DNA from: Candidatus Saccharimonadota bacterium
Lineage (GTDB): Bacteria > Patescibacteriota > Saccharimonadia > Saccharimonadales > UBA10212
DNA: 38,930 nucleotides
Assembly (NCBI GenBank): GCA_016187125.1
Contig: JACPKF010000001.1
Coordinates: forward strand, 1-38,930
Direction: 5' to 3'
Position numbers and translations under genes: made by a program. The notes under the pieces are model-generated. The model worked only from the letters and a program-made list of their open reading frames with translations, ran no database searches and was not told the DNA's origin. Shown here piece after piece: positions 19,630 to 33,197 of this stretch. Numbering within the stretch: the stretch's first letter is position 1; each line of letters begins with the position of its first letter.

Positions 19630-20310
19630 TTAGTCTTTAGTCCCTAGCCGGTAGCCGAAACCGCGAAGCGTCTGGATCAACGGTGGGCTTTTGAAAGGCT
19701 TATCGATTTTATTTCGTAAATAGCCCATGTAAACTTCCACGGTATTTGGCAAAATATCGGCGTCAAAGTCCCAAACATGAGCGATTATTGTGTCTTTGGA
19801 AAGTACCCGGCCGCTGTTGCGAATAAGATATTCTAAAAGTGCGAATTCCTTGGAACTCAAGGCAATCAACTTGCCATCTCTTTTGACTTGGTAGTTAATG
19901 GTATCGAGGCTTAAATTACCAACTTTTAAGATAATATTTTGAGTAACCGCTGGCCGGCGCATTAAAGCTCTGACTCGAGCCAAAAGTTCCTCAAACGAAA
20001 AAGGCTTGACTAAATAATCATCGGCTCCGGCGTTTAAGCCGTCAACGCGATCGCGAATTTGATCCTTGGCTGTCAGCAGCAGAATAGGCGTATGAATTTT
20101 GTTCTTACGAATTTCGCGGCAGATTGCCAAGCCTTCCATAGAACCTGGTAGCAGGCGGTCGATGATCATAACGTCATAACTCTCATTCAAAGCGGCGCCA
20201 AGACCACTGTCTGAATCGTATTCAACATCGACAGCATAATTCTCCTGAGACAAACCTCGCTTAATAGCTCCGGCAATTTTGTGCTCGTCTTCAATCACCA
20301 GAATTCTCAT
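19630..20310 (-). CDS. OmpR/PhoB-family response regulator
   Basis: MRILVIEDEHKIAGAIKRGL...MIIDRLLPG...LLLTAKD...GADDYLVKPF plus winged-helix C-terminus. True start is probably 20310; the track's extra MRSSNE is the leader element read in frame. Confidence 0.95.
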   Translation of the reverse strand: MRILVIEDEHKIAGAIKRGLSQENYAVDVEYDSDSGLGAALNESYDVMIIDRLLPGSMEGLAICREIRKNKIHTPILLLTAKDQIRDRVDGLNAGADDYLVKPFSFEELLARVRALMRRPAVTQNIILKVGNLSLDTINYQVKRDGKLIALSSKEFALLEYLIRNSGRVLSKDTIIAHVWDFDADILPNTVEVYMGYLRNKIDKPFKSPPLIQTLRGFGYRLGTKD

Positions 20311-20393
20311 CTCGTTAGAGCTCCGCATAACTGCCGGCTAGTTATGCGGCAGATTTTATCTTTGATAAAATACTTAGCTCTAACGGGACTCAT
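20307..20393 (-). promoter_or_regulatory. Leader element copy A: uORF MSPVRAKYFIKDKICRITSRQLCGALTR* inside a stem closing at the downstream ATG
   Basis: 29 codons; TGA overlaps the response-regulator ATG; stem arms 20311-20322 / 20376-20387 (11 of 12 pairs). Confidence 0.75.
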
Positions 20394-24529: not shown

Positions 24530-24565
24530 CTGACTTTTAGCCGGTTTTAAGTACAATTTAGCAAC

Positions 24566-24736
24566 TTCACGTATTTCGCACTTTTCCATCACCCCAGATC
24601 ACAGCTGAACGGCTACAAGCTTTCATTCCTCACTCAACATAACTATGGTTATGCTTCCCTCGGATTGAAAGCTTTCGCTCGCTCGAGCTGCAATCTGTCA
24701 TCAATGGCATCAATGGCTAAGTGCGAAATGTGTGAA
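24566..24736 (+). other. 171-nt long-hairpin element (candidate RNA or MITE)
   Basis: TTCACgtATTTCGCACTT/AAGTGCGAAATgtGTGAA with nested AGAT/ATCT, CAGCT/AGCTG, AAGCTTTCA/TGAAAGCTT and CATAAC-TATG-GTTATG. Confidence 0.6.
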
Positions 24737-24807
24737 CCTGAAAAATACTTCTTTCAAAAATACTGAGCGTTATGGTATAGATTCCTTATCTTGTTGTCTT
24801 ATGAAGC

Positions 24808-24973
24808 TATAGCAATCCCAAAACAAAACGTGTCTTTTTCAGGCGATGGATCAGTCAGCCAAAAACTTTCATTTCCGATTAAAACATATCCGTAGATACG
24901 TTGCGCGAGGAATGGGAGTTTTTGGCCACTGAGGCGCGGCTCAAAATGCGTGTTTTGTTTTGGGATTGCTATA
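24808..24973 (+). other. 166-nt long-hairpin element with 22-bp perfect terminal inverted repeats (candidate RNA or MITE)
   Basis: TATAGCAATCCCAAAACAAAAC (24808-24829) / GTTTTGTTTTGGGATTGCTATA (24952-24973); inner CCAAAAACTTTCATTtCC pairs with GGAATGGGAGTTTTTGG using two G-U pairs. Confidence 0.65.
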
Positions 24974-27219: not shown

Positions 27220-28149
27220 ATGCCAAAAACCGCAAAAGCTGCGGCAGATTACATTCTGCCGCTGAATATGAATGGGCTGTCAGGCCGAATGTTGAGATTG
27301 CCACCAAAAGGCTCCAAAAAGCGAGAGCTGCTACTAGTCTATGGTCATCATACTAGCCTGGAGCGGATGATGGGCCTAGCCGAATACCTCAACCGCTATG
27401 GCGCCATAACTATGCCCGACCTACCTGGCTTTGGCGGCATGGAGGCGTTTTATAAAATTGGCGAAAAGCCAACGCTTGACAATCTGGCGGATTATCTAGC
27501 GGCCTTTATCAAACTGCGCTACCGCAATAAACGCCTAACCATAGCCGGCTTTAGCATTGGTGTTATCATAGTTATCCGCATGCTGCAAAAATACCCTGAA
27601 CTGGTCAAAAAAGTTGATCTGGTGGTTAGCATTGTCGGCTTCGCGCACAAAGATGATTTTAGGTTTTCTAAAAAACGCTCCTTTGCTTATCGAACCATGA
27701 CTCAGATTTTTTTACACCGGTTCCCGGCTGCTATTTATAAGCATTTAATCTTGCGGCCGATATTCATTCGCTATGCCTACCGCCATATGTATAACGCCAA
27801 AGAGAAATTTCGTGGCATGAAAGCCGAAGAGCTCAAAAAAGCCATAGAGCTTGAGATTCATTTGTGGCGCTGCAATGATCCTAGAACTTATATGTTTACA
27901 GCAAACACCATGTTTAGGCTAGATATCACAGCTCAACACGTAGATCTGCCAGTCCATCACGTGTCGGTGAGAAAAGATCGATATTTTAACAATATTTTAG
28001 TAGAGCAACATATGCGGAGTATATTTTCGGACTTTTATTTACACAAAACCTCGATGCCGAGCCATATGCCTTCTATCATCGCCACAGCCGATGTGGCCGG
28101 TCCATTTGTACCGGAAAGTATTCGGCGACTCCTTCGGAAAAAGGTATAA
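27220..28149 (+). CDS. Alpha/beta hydrolase-fold protein
   Basis: LLLVYGHHTSLERMMGLAEYLNRYGAITMPDLPGFGG...LTIAGFSIGVIIVIRML. Confidence 0.8.
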   Translation: MPKTAKAAADYILPLNMNGLSGRMLRLPPKGSKKRELLLVYGHHTSLERMMGLAEYLNRYGAITMPDLPGFGGMEAFYKIGEKPTLDNLADYLAAFIKLRYRNKRLTIAGFSIGVIIVIRMLQKYPELVKKVDLVVSIVGFAHKDDFRFSKKRSFAYRTMTQIFLHRFPAAIYKHLILRPIFIRYAYRHMYNAKEKFRGMKAEELKKAIELEIHLWRCNDPRTYMFTANTMFRLDITAQHVDLPVHHVSVRKDRYFNNILVEQHMRSIFSDFYLHKTSMPSHMPSIIATADVAGPFVPESIRRLLRKKV

Positions 28150-28156
28150 TGAGCTT

Positions 28157-28267
28157 ATGAATCCCGTTAGAGTCCCTGAGGACTTACGTTTATTTAAGAT
28201 ATCTATGTTAAACACGCCAAGCTTACTTCTTATTAGACCAATATTTGTAAGGACTCTAACGGGATGA
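28157..28267 (+). promoter_or_regulatory. Leader element copy C: uORF MNPVRVPEDLRLFKISMLNTPSLLLIRPIFVRTLTG* inside a stem closing at the downstream ATG
   Basis: 37 codons; TGA (28265-28267) overlaps ATG (28264-28266); 13-bp perfect stem 28163-28175 / 28251-28263. Confidence 0.75.
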
Positions 28268-29511
28268 AAATTGGTCTGGTTTGTCCTTATAACATGTTTC
28301 AGCGTCCCGGAGGCGTTCCACATTTAATAATCCATCTGGCCGAAGGTCTACGAAAAAGAGGTCACAGTGTCAAAATCATCACTCCTAGGCCAACAACCTA
28401 TAAGGGCAAGGTGCCTGAAGACTACATCCTTTTAGGAAGTGTTAGAAATTTTGGCGGCGGCTTTGGAACAGCTGGTGCCTGGGGCAGTACCTTCAATGTC
28501 GCAGAGGTCAAAAGAACCTTAGAGGAAGAAAAATTTGATATCATAAACTTTCATGAGCCTTGGATTCCGATGATTGGTTGGCAAATCCTGAATTATTCAA
28601 AAGCCGCTCACGTTGGTACTTTTCATGCCAATTTGGCTGATAATACTGCCGGTAAATTTTGGATTAATACTTTTTACCCTATCGGCAAACCAATGATCGA
28701 AAAACTAGATATCCTTACCGCTCCGTCCAAAGTACCAACAGTTATGCTTATGGCCAAAGCCAATGAAGGCAACCAGCTGCATCAGTTTTTAATGGACAAT
28801 TTTACAATTATCCCAAACGGTGTTGATCTAAGAAAATATAGGCCTCCGAAGTCTAGGCAGCCTTTATCCGGAAAAAACACGAAAACTATAGTTTACGTTG
28901 GCAGACTTGAGAAAAGAAAGGGTGTGGAGTATTTGCTAGAGGCATTTAACCTGTTGGTTAAAGAAATGCCAAATGTTCATTTAGTAATCGCTGGTAAAGG
29001 TGGTAAGCAAAAAGAGCTGGAATACATAGTCGAAGATAACAAAACACCCAATGTCAGTTTTTCGGGTTTTATAACGGATGAGGAAAAAATCCGGCTGTTT
29101 GGGAATGCTGATCTAGTTTGTGCGCCAGCCATGTACGGAGAAAGTTTTGGAATAGTACTGGTTGAAGCGATGGCTATGGGCGCTCCAATTATTGCCGGCG
29201 CTAACCTTGGTTTTAAAAGTGTTATGAGCGGCAAGGGCCGAATCGGACTTGTTGATGCCCAGTCAGCTGATGATTTTGCCAATCGTATGGCTGTTTTTTT
29301 GAGCGTCCCGGAGATTGAAAAAATGATGCGTAACTGGGGAATTGCTACGTCCAAGCAATATGAGTACGAGCGAGTTATCAAGCAGTATGAGGCTACCTAC
29401 AAACAAGCAATCAAAATCAGTAATCAGAGGAAGATTGATAGAGCAGAAAAGAAAAATGACGGAAGGCTTAAAAAAATTGGTCGTCGGCTTTTTGTACGAC
29501 GACACGCTTGA
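28264..29511 (+). CDS. GT4-family glycosyltransferase
   Basis: MKIGLVCPYNMFQRPGGVPHLIIHLAEGLRKRGH...VYVGRLEKRKGVEYLLEA...APAMYGESFGIVLVEAMAMGAPI. Confidence 0.93.
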   Translation: MKIGLVCPYNMFQRPGGVPHLIIHLAEGLRKRGHSVKIITPRPTTYKGKVPEDYILLGSVRNFGGGFGTAGAWGSTFNVAEVKRTLEEEKFDIINFHEPWIPMIGWQILNYSKAAHVGTFHANLADNTAGKFWINTFYPIGKPMIEKLDILTAPSKVPTVMLMAKANEGNQLHQFLMDNFTIIPNGVDLRKYRPPKSRQPLSGKNTKTIVYVGRLEKRKGVEYLLEAFNLLVKEMPNVHLVIAGKGGKQKELEYIVEDNKTPNVSFSGFITDEEKIRLFGNADLVCAPAMYGESFGIVLVEAMAMGAPIIAGANLGFKSVMSGKGRIGLVDAQSADDFANRMAVFLSVPEIEKMMRNWGIATSKQYEYERVIKQYEATYKQAIKISNQRKIDRAEKKNDGRLKKIGRRLFVRRHA

Positions 29512-31712: not shown

Positions 31713-33114
31713 GATGATCTCTGTGCCAAATAGGTCCTTGCGGCGAATCGTCTATTGCTAGACCTTCGCCTGATAGCTTTTGGCGGATGATATCTGCTTC
31801 ATCCCATCGCTCTAATTTCCGGGCCTGTTCACGATCGGCAATCATTTGCTTTTGAATTTTCGTAATGTCGGTTCTACTTTTTAAGCCGAGTCCGAATATG
31901 AAGTCTAGCTTGTCTAATAACTCAGCTGTTGGACGACCTTTGATTAGGTACCGGTTTAGGACACCCAGAGCCACAGGCGTATTTAGATCATCTTGAATGG
32001 CCGATATTAGCAGTTCTAGCAGATGAGTTGTATCCTGAGCGGTAATTTCTTCTGAAACACTCGGCTGGTAAATCTGGTCCGCCCAGGCGTACATATTGGA
32101 CAAGTTTTGAGCGGCAGCCTTTAAACTATCCCAGGTGAAATTCATTTGACTTCGGTAATGCGCTTGTAAAAACAAAAGCCGCAGTGCTAAGGGCTGAAAG
32201 CCTTTTTTGGCAAGATCATTGAGAGTATAAAAATTAGCCTTTGACTTGGCCATTTTTTGGTCGTCGGCATGCAAGTGTTCGCTATGCAGCCAAAACCTAG
32301 CCAGTTTATGTCCAAAGGCCGCCTCGGTTTGAGCCATCTCGTTGACGTGGTGAGTGCCGATATTATCAACCCCACCGGTATGAATATCTATCGGATCACC
32401 TAGCGTGCTGTGAATAATGGCCGAACATTCTAAGTGCCAGCCGGGGAAGCCTTCGCCCCATGGACTCATCCAACGCATATCATGGTTTATAAATCTTCCA
32501 GTGGCAAAAAACCAAAGACCAAAATCTTGCGGGCTACGCTTGTTCTTATCTGTTATAACTTCGTGACGGACGGCTACCTCTTTGTCGGATAGCCTTTGTC
32601 TGGTAAGTTCGCCGTAACTAGGTAATTTAGCGACGTCAAAATAGATGGCTTCTTTAGTTTGATAGGCAAAATCTTTATCTAATAATATTTTGACTATAGC
32701 GATTTGGGGATCTATAAAGTCCGTTGCCCGAGCATAATTGTCGTCTTTGGAACGGTAGCCGTTGGGTGGCAATATGTTCATGGCCAGCATATCTTTTTTG
32801 AAAGCATCGGCGTAGAATTTAGCAATCTCCCAAACCGATTTACCTTCCCTGGCAGCGCCTGCTTCGAGCTTGTCCTCGCCCTCGTCACTGTCACTTACTA
32901 AATGTCCTACATCAGTAATATTCATAACATGCTTAACTTTGTAGCCGCTGGCGCTGAGCGCTCGGCGCAAGCTGTCGTCAAAGGTAAATTTACGCAAATT
33001 ACCAATATGCATGTAGTCATAGACGGTTGGTCCGCAGCTATAAAGCCTAACTTCGCCGTCGTTTATAGGTTTAAAGTCTTCCTTTTTACGCGTTAAAGTA
33101 TTATGCAGTTTCAT
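31705..33114 (-). CDS. cysS: Cysteinyl-tRNA synthetase
   Basis: LYSCGPTVYDYMHIGNLRKFTFDD...GWHLECSAI...HTGGVDNIGTHHVNEMAQ...KMAKSKANF. Confidence 0.97.
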   Translation of the reverse strand: MKLHNTLTRKKEDFKPINDGEVRLYSCGPTVYDYMHIGNLRKFTFDDSLRRALSASGYKVKHVMNITDVGHLVSDSDEGEDKLEAGAAREGKSVWEIAKFYADAFKKDMLAMNILPPNGYRSKDDNYARATDFIDPQIAIVKILLDKDFAYQTKEAIYFDVAKLPSYGELTRQRLSDKEVAVRHEVITDKNKRSPQDFGLWFFATGRFINHDMRWMSPWGEGFPGWHLECSAIIHSTLGDPIDIHTGGVDNIGTHHVNEMAQTEAAFGHKLARFWLHSEHLHADDQKMAKSKANFYTLNDLAKKGFQPLALRLLFLQAHYRSQMNFTWDSLKAAAQNLSNMYAWADQIYQPSVSEEITAQDTTHLLELLISAIQDDLNTPVALGVLNRYLIKGRPTAELLDKLDFIFGLGLKSRTDITKIQKQMIADREQARKLERWDEADIIRQKLSGEGLAIDDSPQGPIWHRDHLS

Positions 33115-33197
33115 CCCGTTAGAGCTCCGCTTGACTGCCGGCTAGTTATGCGGCAGATTTTATCAAAGATAAAATACTTAGCTCTAACGGGATTCAT
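33111..33197 (-). promoter_or_regulatory. Leader element copy B: uORF MNPVRAKYFIFDKICRITSRQSSGALTG* inside a stem closing at the downstream ATG
   Basis: 29 codons; TGA overlaps cysS ATG; start overlaps the end of the DHH gene; 12-bp perfect stem 33115-33126 / 33180-33191. Confidence 0.75.

Follow-up and report, generated by a model that had tools for sequence, protein, structure and literature searches.

The window (the whole 38,930-nucleotide stretch of DNA that was analysed) contains a 36-aa ORF whose stop codon overlaps the start of a glycosyltransferase gene (Table 1). The sequence of this region (ATGAATCCCGTTAGAGTCC...GGACTCTAACGGGATGA, positions 28157-28267), its start, its stop and its place before the glycosyltransferase are all as given in the original prediction, which had grouped it as leader element C with two others, A and B. 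The TATAAT just before the first ATG (ATG1) suggests that the glycosyltransferase gene was originally leaderless, or nearly so. A stem joins the two ends of C; it had been put at 13 bp, but the perfect inverted repeat measures 15 bp (28161-28175/28251-28265), and the further CTTAC/GTAAG pairing was recovered at 28183-28187 and 28247-28251. The RNA fold of the element (z = -3.7) beats all 200 shuffles.

Table 1. Features of the window connected with leader element C and with the other two copies (positions are those of the window).
Feature	Position	Strand	Remarks
-10-like box, TATAAT	28145..28150	+	6 nt upstream of first ATG; from sequence; orthologues in relatives arranged alike
ATG1, original start codon of the glycosyltransferase, now start of the leader ORF	28157..28159	+	From sequence and the empty site in relative L280
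Leader ORF, 36 aa, from ATG1 to the TGA overlapping ATG2	28157..28267	+	
TGAA, left copy of 4-bp target duplication	28158..28161	+	Size set by cases with GTG left and ATG right
Leader element C, inferred mobile element, 103 bp, TCCCGTTAGAGTC...GACTCTAACGGGA	28162..28264	+	
Left terminal inverted repeat of C, 10 fixed bp and 3 variable but complementary bp	28162..28174	+	
Right terminal inverted repeat of C; its final A is the first base of the new start codon	28252..28264	+	
TGAA, right copy of 4-bp target duplication	28265..28268	+	
Host gene, GT4-type glycosyltransferase, 415 aa, from regenerated ATG2	28264..29511	+	Pfam PF00534, E 2e-36
Element A, interior family AAGTATTTTATC, before response regulator	20310..20388	-	
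Element B, interior family as in A, before cysS	33114..33192	-	Site empty in relatives read

When up to 3 mismatches were allowed, the first 18 bases of C were matched 4 times in the window, compared with 0.03 matches expected from shuffles; the four are elements A and B and both arms of C. The interior of C had been described as wholly different from those of A and B. Interiors are indeed interchangeable, but that of C is not unique: at least three relatives of equal length, which form a subfamily with it, stand at other genes (L017, L088 and L066, with 44, 39 and 34 identical positions out of 77; shuffle maxima 35, 32 and 33, respectively). Elsewhere in the window, at 24549-24973, lies a cluster of 3 inverted repeats (16-41 bp, loops of 37-123 nt) whose sequence is unrelated to these elements.

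A search of the 828 kb assembly with the element end only (TCTAACGGG) gave 62 matches, compared with 12 for the reversed control. Together with near matches these pair into about 34 copies, mostly of 72-112 bp, with interiors from several unrelated families. The terminal inverted repeats of the family are 13 bp long, 10 positions being fixed (TCCCGTTAGA...TCTAACGGGA) and 3 covarying. In most copies the 5 bases before the left repeat are the same as the 5 after the right repeat (ATGAA/ATGAA, ATGAG/ATGAG, ATGGA/ATGGA, ATGTA/ATGTA and ATGGG/ATGGG). In 10 copies of the whole collection the left-hand start codon is GTG or TTG and the right-hand one ATG, with identical bases following each. The target that is duplicated is therefore the 4-bp TGNN, and the second ATG takes its A from the element; this duplication is exact in 26 of the 34 genome copies. 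The insertion point thus lies between the first base of the start codon and TG; a new ATG is formed with the element's final A, and the host coding sequence is kept intact. The host genes in this genome are functionally unrelated (murJ-like, cysS, murB-like, valS-like, gatC-like and response regulator genes, amongst others).

No exact-end pair in the genome spans more than about 200 bp, and no larger element was seen there. Of the unpaired ends, 2 look like chance matches inside genes and 3 are elements with minisatellite-filled interiors. In L078, L080 and L082 the left end lies on or close to a start codon, the interior is a GTGAAAT-type minisatellite and there is no right end nearby. Several element ends are nested upstream of an rpmJ-like gene (L001/L010, G000:C6:63029-63153), apparently as a result of elements inserting into elements; the same gene carries a copy in G011 (L342). 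A 190-bp copy with a long inner palindrome (L083, G000:C5:42099-42288) seems to contain a rearranged or duplicated element in its interior.

Relative to the host gene, members of one interior family point either way; a forward copy and an inverted one share up to 81% identity over 84 bp. Moreover, orthologous genes from different genera carry different interior families at the same start codon (L037 and L092, L062 and L093, L018 and L066). The glycosyltransferase gene is without such an element in most relatives, its start (ATGAAAATAGG) being intact in G011, and no element occupies the cysS site of B in those relatives whose start was readable. We therefore consider it almost certain that leader element C is a mobile element inserted at a start codon. 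The idea of a regulatory leader family had to be given up; the shared ends are the terminal inverted repeats and duplicated start-codon target of such an element. Recurrent insertion at the same gene start is compatible with homing-type spread, in which an empty allele is cut and then copied into. The G020 counterpart of the glycosyltransferase start occupied by C also carries an element, a separate and degenerate one whose ends are altered (ATGAAACCCGTAAG...TTTCTAACAGG, L296); this suggests that there are divergent end families that are missed by exact-end searches.

The association with start codons was tested by end-only searches; a set of elements found via exact ends that include the ATG cannot test it. 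Short copies located by their ends alone in seven relatives adjoined an ORF start in 30 of 30 cases; the hosts of 25 of these include genes resembling gyrB, frr, gatC and rpmJ. Full-length GIY-YIG copies recovered in the same way from a phylum-wide sample were likewise all at ORF starts (8/8). Uniform insertion into starts and non-coding TG sites would place about 5% of copies at starts. As regards place, the outcome against which the original prediction had been staked, namely ends lying mostly away from gene starts, did not occur; ends lie at gene starts essentially always.

A -10-like box is present upstream of 40 of 101 short copies with a left start codon, compared with 12 in shuffles. 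Targeting of the promoter, through the open complex at a leaderless start, was considered as a candidate. However, many copies, such as that at cysS, have no -10-like box, and the start codon fits better than the transcription start. Some hosts, again like cysS, begin inside or right after the upstream gene, and thus the factor common to all is the start codon. In viral contigs 4 stretches with exact ends were found, only 1 of them clearly at a gene start; phages are therefore not an obvious carrier.

The three variable positions of the arms pair within elements in 97-100% of 113 distinct long elements (shuffle maxima 62-85%), and in 77-88% of 84 short elements, above every shuffle. Since these positions covary, the palindrome is maintained, either as DNA or as RNA. 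The covariation that the original prediction called for is therefore real, but it does not single out a particular RNA leader, given that one family is found in both orientations. The frame and ATGA overlap common to A, B and C are also no rule for the family, in which all three frames occur. Among the 34 genome copies, the distance from ATG to ATG leaves a remainder of 1 on division by 3 in 19, of 2 in 12 and of 0 in 3; for the 101 short copies with a left start codon the corresponding numbers are 58, 29 and 14.

Despite this freedom of frame, the leader is stop-free from ATG1 to the right repeat in 83 of these 101 copies, against 23 in shuffles (s.d. 4, maximum 36), so that, as in translational coupling, an upstream ORF ends beside or overlapping the downstream start. 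Turning the element round served as a control: 62 copies were open in the sense direction only and 3 in the antisense direction only (p = 2.5e-15). Open leaders are correlated within families, and with singletons only the numbers were 16 and 3. Members of the family that occurs in both orientations are mostly open in whichever direction they are inserted. Depending on the frame, the right end offers a TAA 4 nt upstream of ATG2, a TGA overlapping ATG2 (with ATGA) or read-through. These patterns in sequence indicate that translation from ATG1 to ATG2 is under selection, and the excess of leaders that are stop-free in the inserted direction (62 against 3) strongly supports a hand-over of ribosomes to ATG2. 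We infer from the open leader that re-initiation is the route by which the host gene is actually expressed. Two copies, L023 and L029 (G000), are in frame and without stops, and here the host protein may gain about 24 element-encoded N-terminal residues. The stem and the ATGA coupling had been singled out as the selected parts; the ends do matter and passage between the two ATGs appears to be selected, but neither a fixed frame nor a regulatory leader is borne out.

Element C encodes only the 36-aa leader and has no GIY-YIG domain. Copies that appeared to lack a left end, by contrast, proved to be longer elements: in six genomes of the class, the two repeats start 264 bp from one another with a single ORF between them, typically M[NS]PVR...YVYVL...LTG*, which begins at the host start codon in 5 of the 6 and ends in a TGA that overlaps the new ATG. 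This ORF is a GIY-YIG protein (Pfam PF01541), and the elements, of about 275 bp, have ends and sites as in the short copies. A scan of one genome per prokaryote species for exact ends with similar spacing found at least 116 stretches, mostly in CPR bacteria (Saccharibacteria, Nomurabacteria, Kaiserbacteria, Yanofskybacteria, Doudnabacteria, Roizmanbacteria and others), with a few in Omnitrophota, Planctomycetes and Desulfobacterales and one in a Woesearchaeote. A GIY-YIG ORF of at least 80 aa was present in 102 of 119 long elements, in some of which it starts at an internal ATG. The flanks of 31 of the 119 differ by at least 2 mismatches, some being offset by one base. Five records (L191, L206, L223, L228 and L255) have GIY-YIG elements before the same gene (MQFKVPQFL...), some with duplications one base off; these could reflect either inheritance or repeated insertion.

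Very probably these GIY-YIG elements are relatives of the start-codon mobile elements, and the form of about 275 bp is probably the autonomous one. In the class sample, the genomes with the most copies generally also carry a full-length copy. The genome of the window, which is 97% complete, has no full-length GIY-YIG copy with exact ends, and none of the four GIY-YIG loci examined in it has both ends; its short copies may therefore be orphans. From the shared ends, the shared target and the co-occurrence of short and full-length copies in the class sample, we lean towards the GIY-YIG nuclease as the agent that mobilises the short copies. The GIY-YIG domain alone is not known to act as an integrase, and we know of no mechanism by which it would find start codons. 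The need of the nuclease ORF for a host start codon is a possible part of the explanation for the targeting, though it does not account for the short copies.

Rfam searches of the window (relaxed threshold) and of ten element loci (gathering threshold) returned nothing relevant, the one hit being a tRNA elsewhere in the window. A leader of the Rfam type is kept in one orientation with orthologous genes, whereas here both orientations occur and orthologues are mostly empty or have other interiors. Integron attC sites were rejected, as the core arms are inside out for attC (GTTAGAG...CTCTAAC). IS200/605-type and REP elements duplicate no target and were ruled out for that reason.

The nearest published systems are the prokaryotic MITEs and the Rickettsia palindromic elements (RPEs; PMC10969869), along with GIY-YIG insertions in CPR rRNA genes (PMC11270868), none of which is described as targeting start codons. 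Like MITEs (PMC10969869), the start-codon elements are short and (nearly) non-coding, have terminal inverted repeats and a target-site duplication, lie at many unrelated loci with empty orthologous sites, and may depend on a longer relative. They differ from MITEs in sitting at starts and rebuilding the ATG, in having interiors that are unrelated between families, and in that their longer relative carries a GIY-YIG nuclease gene instead of that of any known transposase; these same-ended GIY-YIG elements, which could act in trans, are found in relatives and not in the genome of the window. With RPEs (PMC10969869) they share a palindromic, selfish nature and toleration in genes through staying translatable. 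Many RPEs, however, are in-frame insertions within coding sequences, to which they add a peptide, whereas the start-codon elements sit at start codons in any of the three frames and usually leave the protein unchanged. GIY-YIG homing endonuclease genes, including the CPR rRNA insertions reported as sparse and as matching no intron type (PMC11270868), resemble the long elements in that the insert has no gene besides a small GIY-YIG ORF, and they occur in the same bacterial radiation. Compared by description with such homing endonuclease genes, the start-codon elements have terminal inverted repeats and a target duplication, occupy the start codons of many unrelated protein genes and contain no intron. 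No published description of start-codon elements was found, which is weak evidence of novelty as most subscription journals and preprints lay outside the search.

The original view, that C is a cis-regulatory leader (a structured RNA or leader-peptide attenuator exerting control via the stem and ATGA coupling), can draw on the strength of the stem (z = -3.7), the compensatory variation in its arms and the open leader ORF. It is largely refuted by the inverted copies of a single interior family and by the empty sites; most orthologues either have no element there or have an unrelated one. The downstream genes have no function in common, all three frames occur, target duplications are present, Rfam offers no match and elements with the same ends encode a nuclease, leaving this view very improbable. 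The hairpin, flanked as it is by matching take-off and landing sequences, would also suit translational bypass or RNA excision between two identical ATGNN copies brought together by the stem. Plain initiation or re-initiation at ATG2 is enough, however, and bypass or excision does not need a leader that is stop-free to its end, as is observed. Moreover, the first base of the two copies sometimes differs (GTG left, ATG right), and we regard this explanation as the least credible of all.

A greater share of probability, though still one that makes it unlikely, falls to a MITE family of the conventional kind, mobilised by a transposase (DDE or other) that escaped detection, with the GIY-YIG gene as a passenger homing endonuclease that invaded the element. 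Cut-and-paste transposons typically have perfect repeats and duplicate a short target of constant length, and GIY-YIG domains are not known as integrases. Against this, a GIY-YIG ORF is the main coding content between the repeats (102/119 long elements), often starting and ending inside them, and the exact-end pairs of the genome reveal no element larger than about 200 bp.

The reading that we prefer is a start-codon mobile element. A short, non-autonomous element would insert between the first base of a start codon and TG, duplicating TGNN, and its final A would rebuild the ATG, leaving the coding sequence of the host gene whole. In the putative autonomous element of about 275 bp, the nuclease ORF would typically borrow the host start codon (M[NS]PVR...) and end (...LTG*) over the regenerated ATG. 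Ribosomes from the old ATG would cross the element and pass to the new one by way of the TAA 4 nt before it, the overlapping TGA or in-frame reading. We consider this statement as a whole, with its GIY-YIG autonomous form and ribosome hand-over, to be likely. On balance, we also favour the broader proposal of a distinct, CPR-wide class of mobile elements with insertion specific for translation start codons, whose GIY-YIG gene borrows the host promoter and start codon, rebuilds the ATG and trails swarms of non-autonomous copies that are retained via a stop-free ribosome path.

If true, this would put a name to a large group of mobile elements, apparently undescribed so far, in bacteria whose genomes are very small, and would account for many of the tiny ORFs that overlap gene starts in CPR bacteria as well as for some of their small GIY-YIG proteins. 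It would also show how essential genes (cysS, gyrB, ribosomal protein genes) can harbour a parasite and stay intact, and would pose the question of how an insertion at the level of DNA recognises a translation signal. Lastly, the copies provide a natural experiment on re-initiation, in which retention of an interior, whatever its family or direction, mostly depends on whether a ribosome can traverse it.
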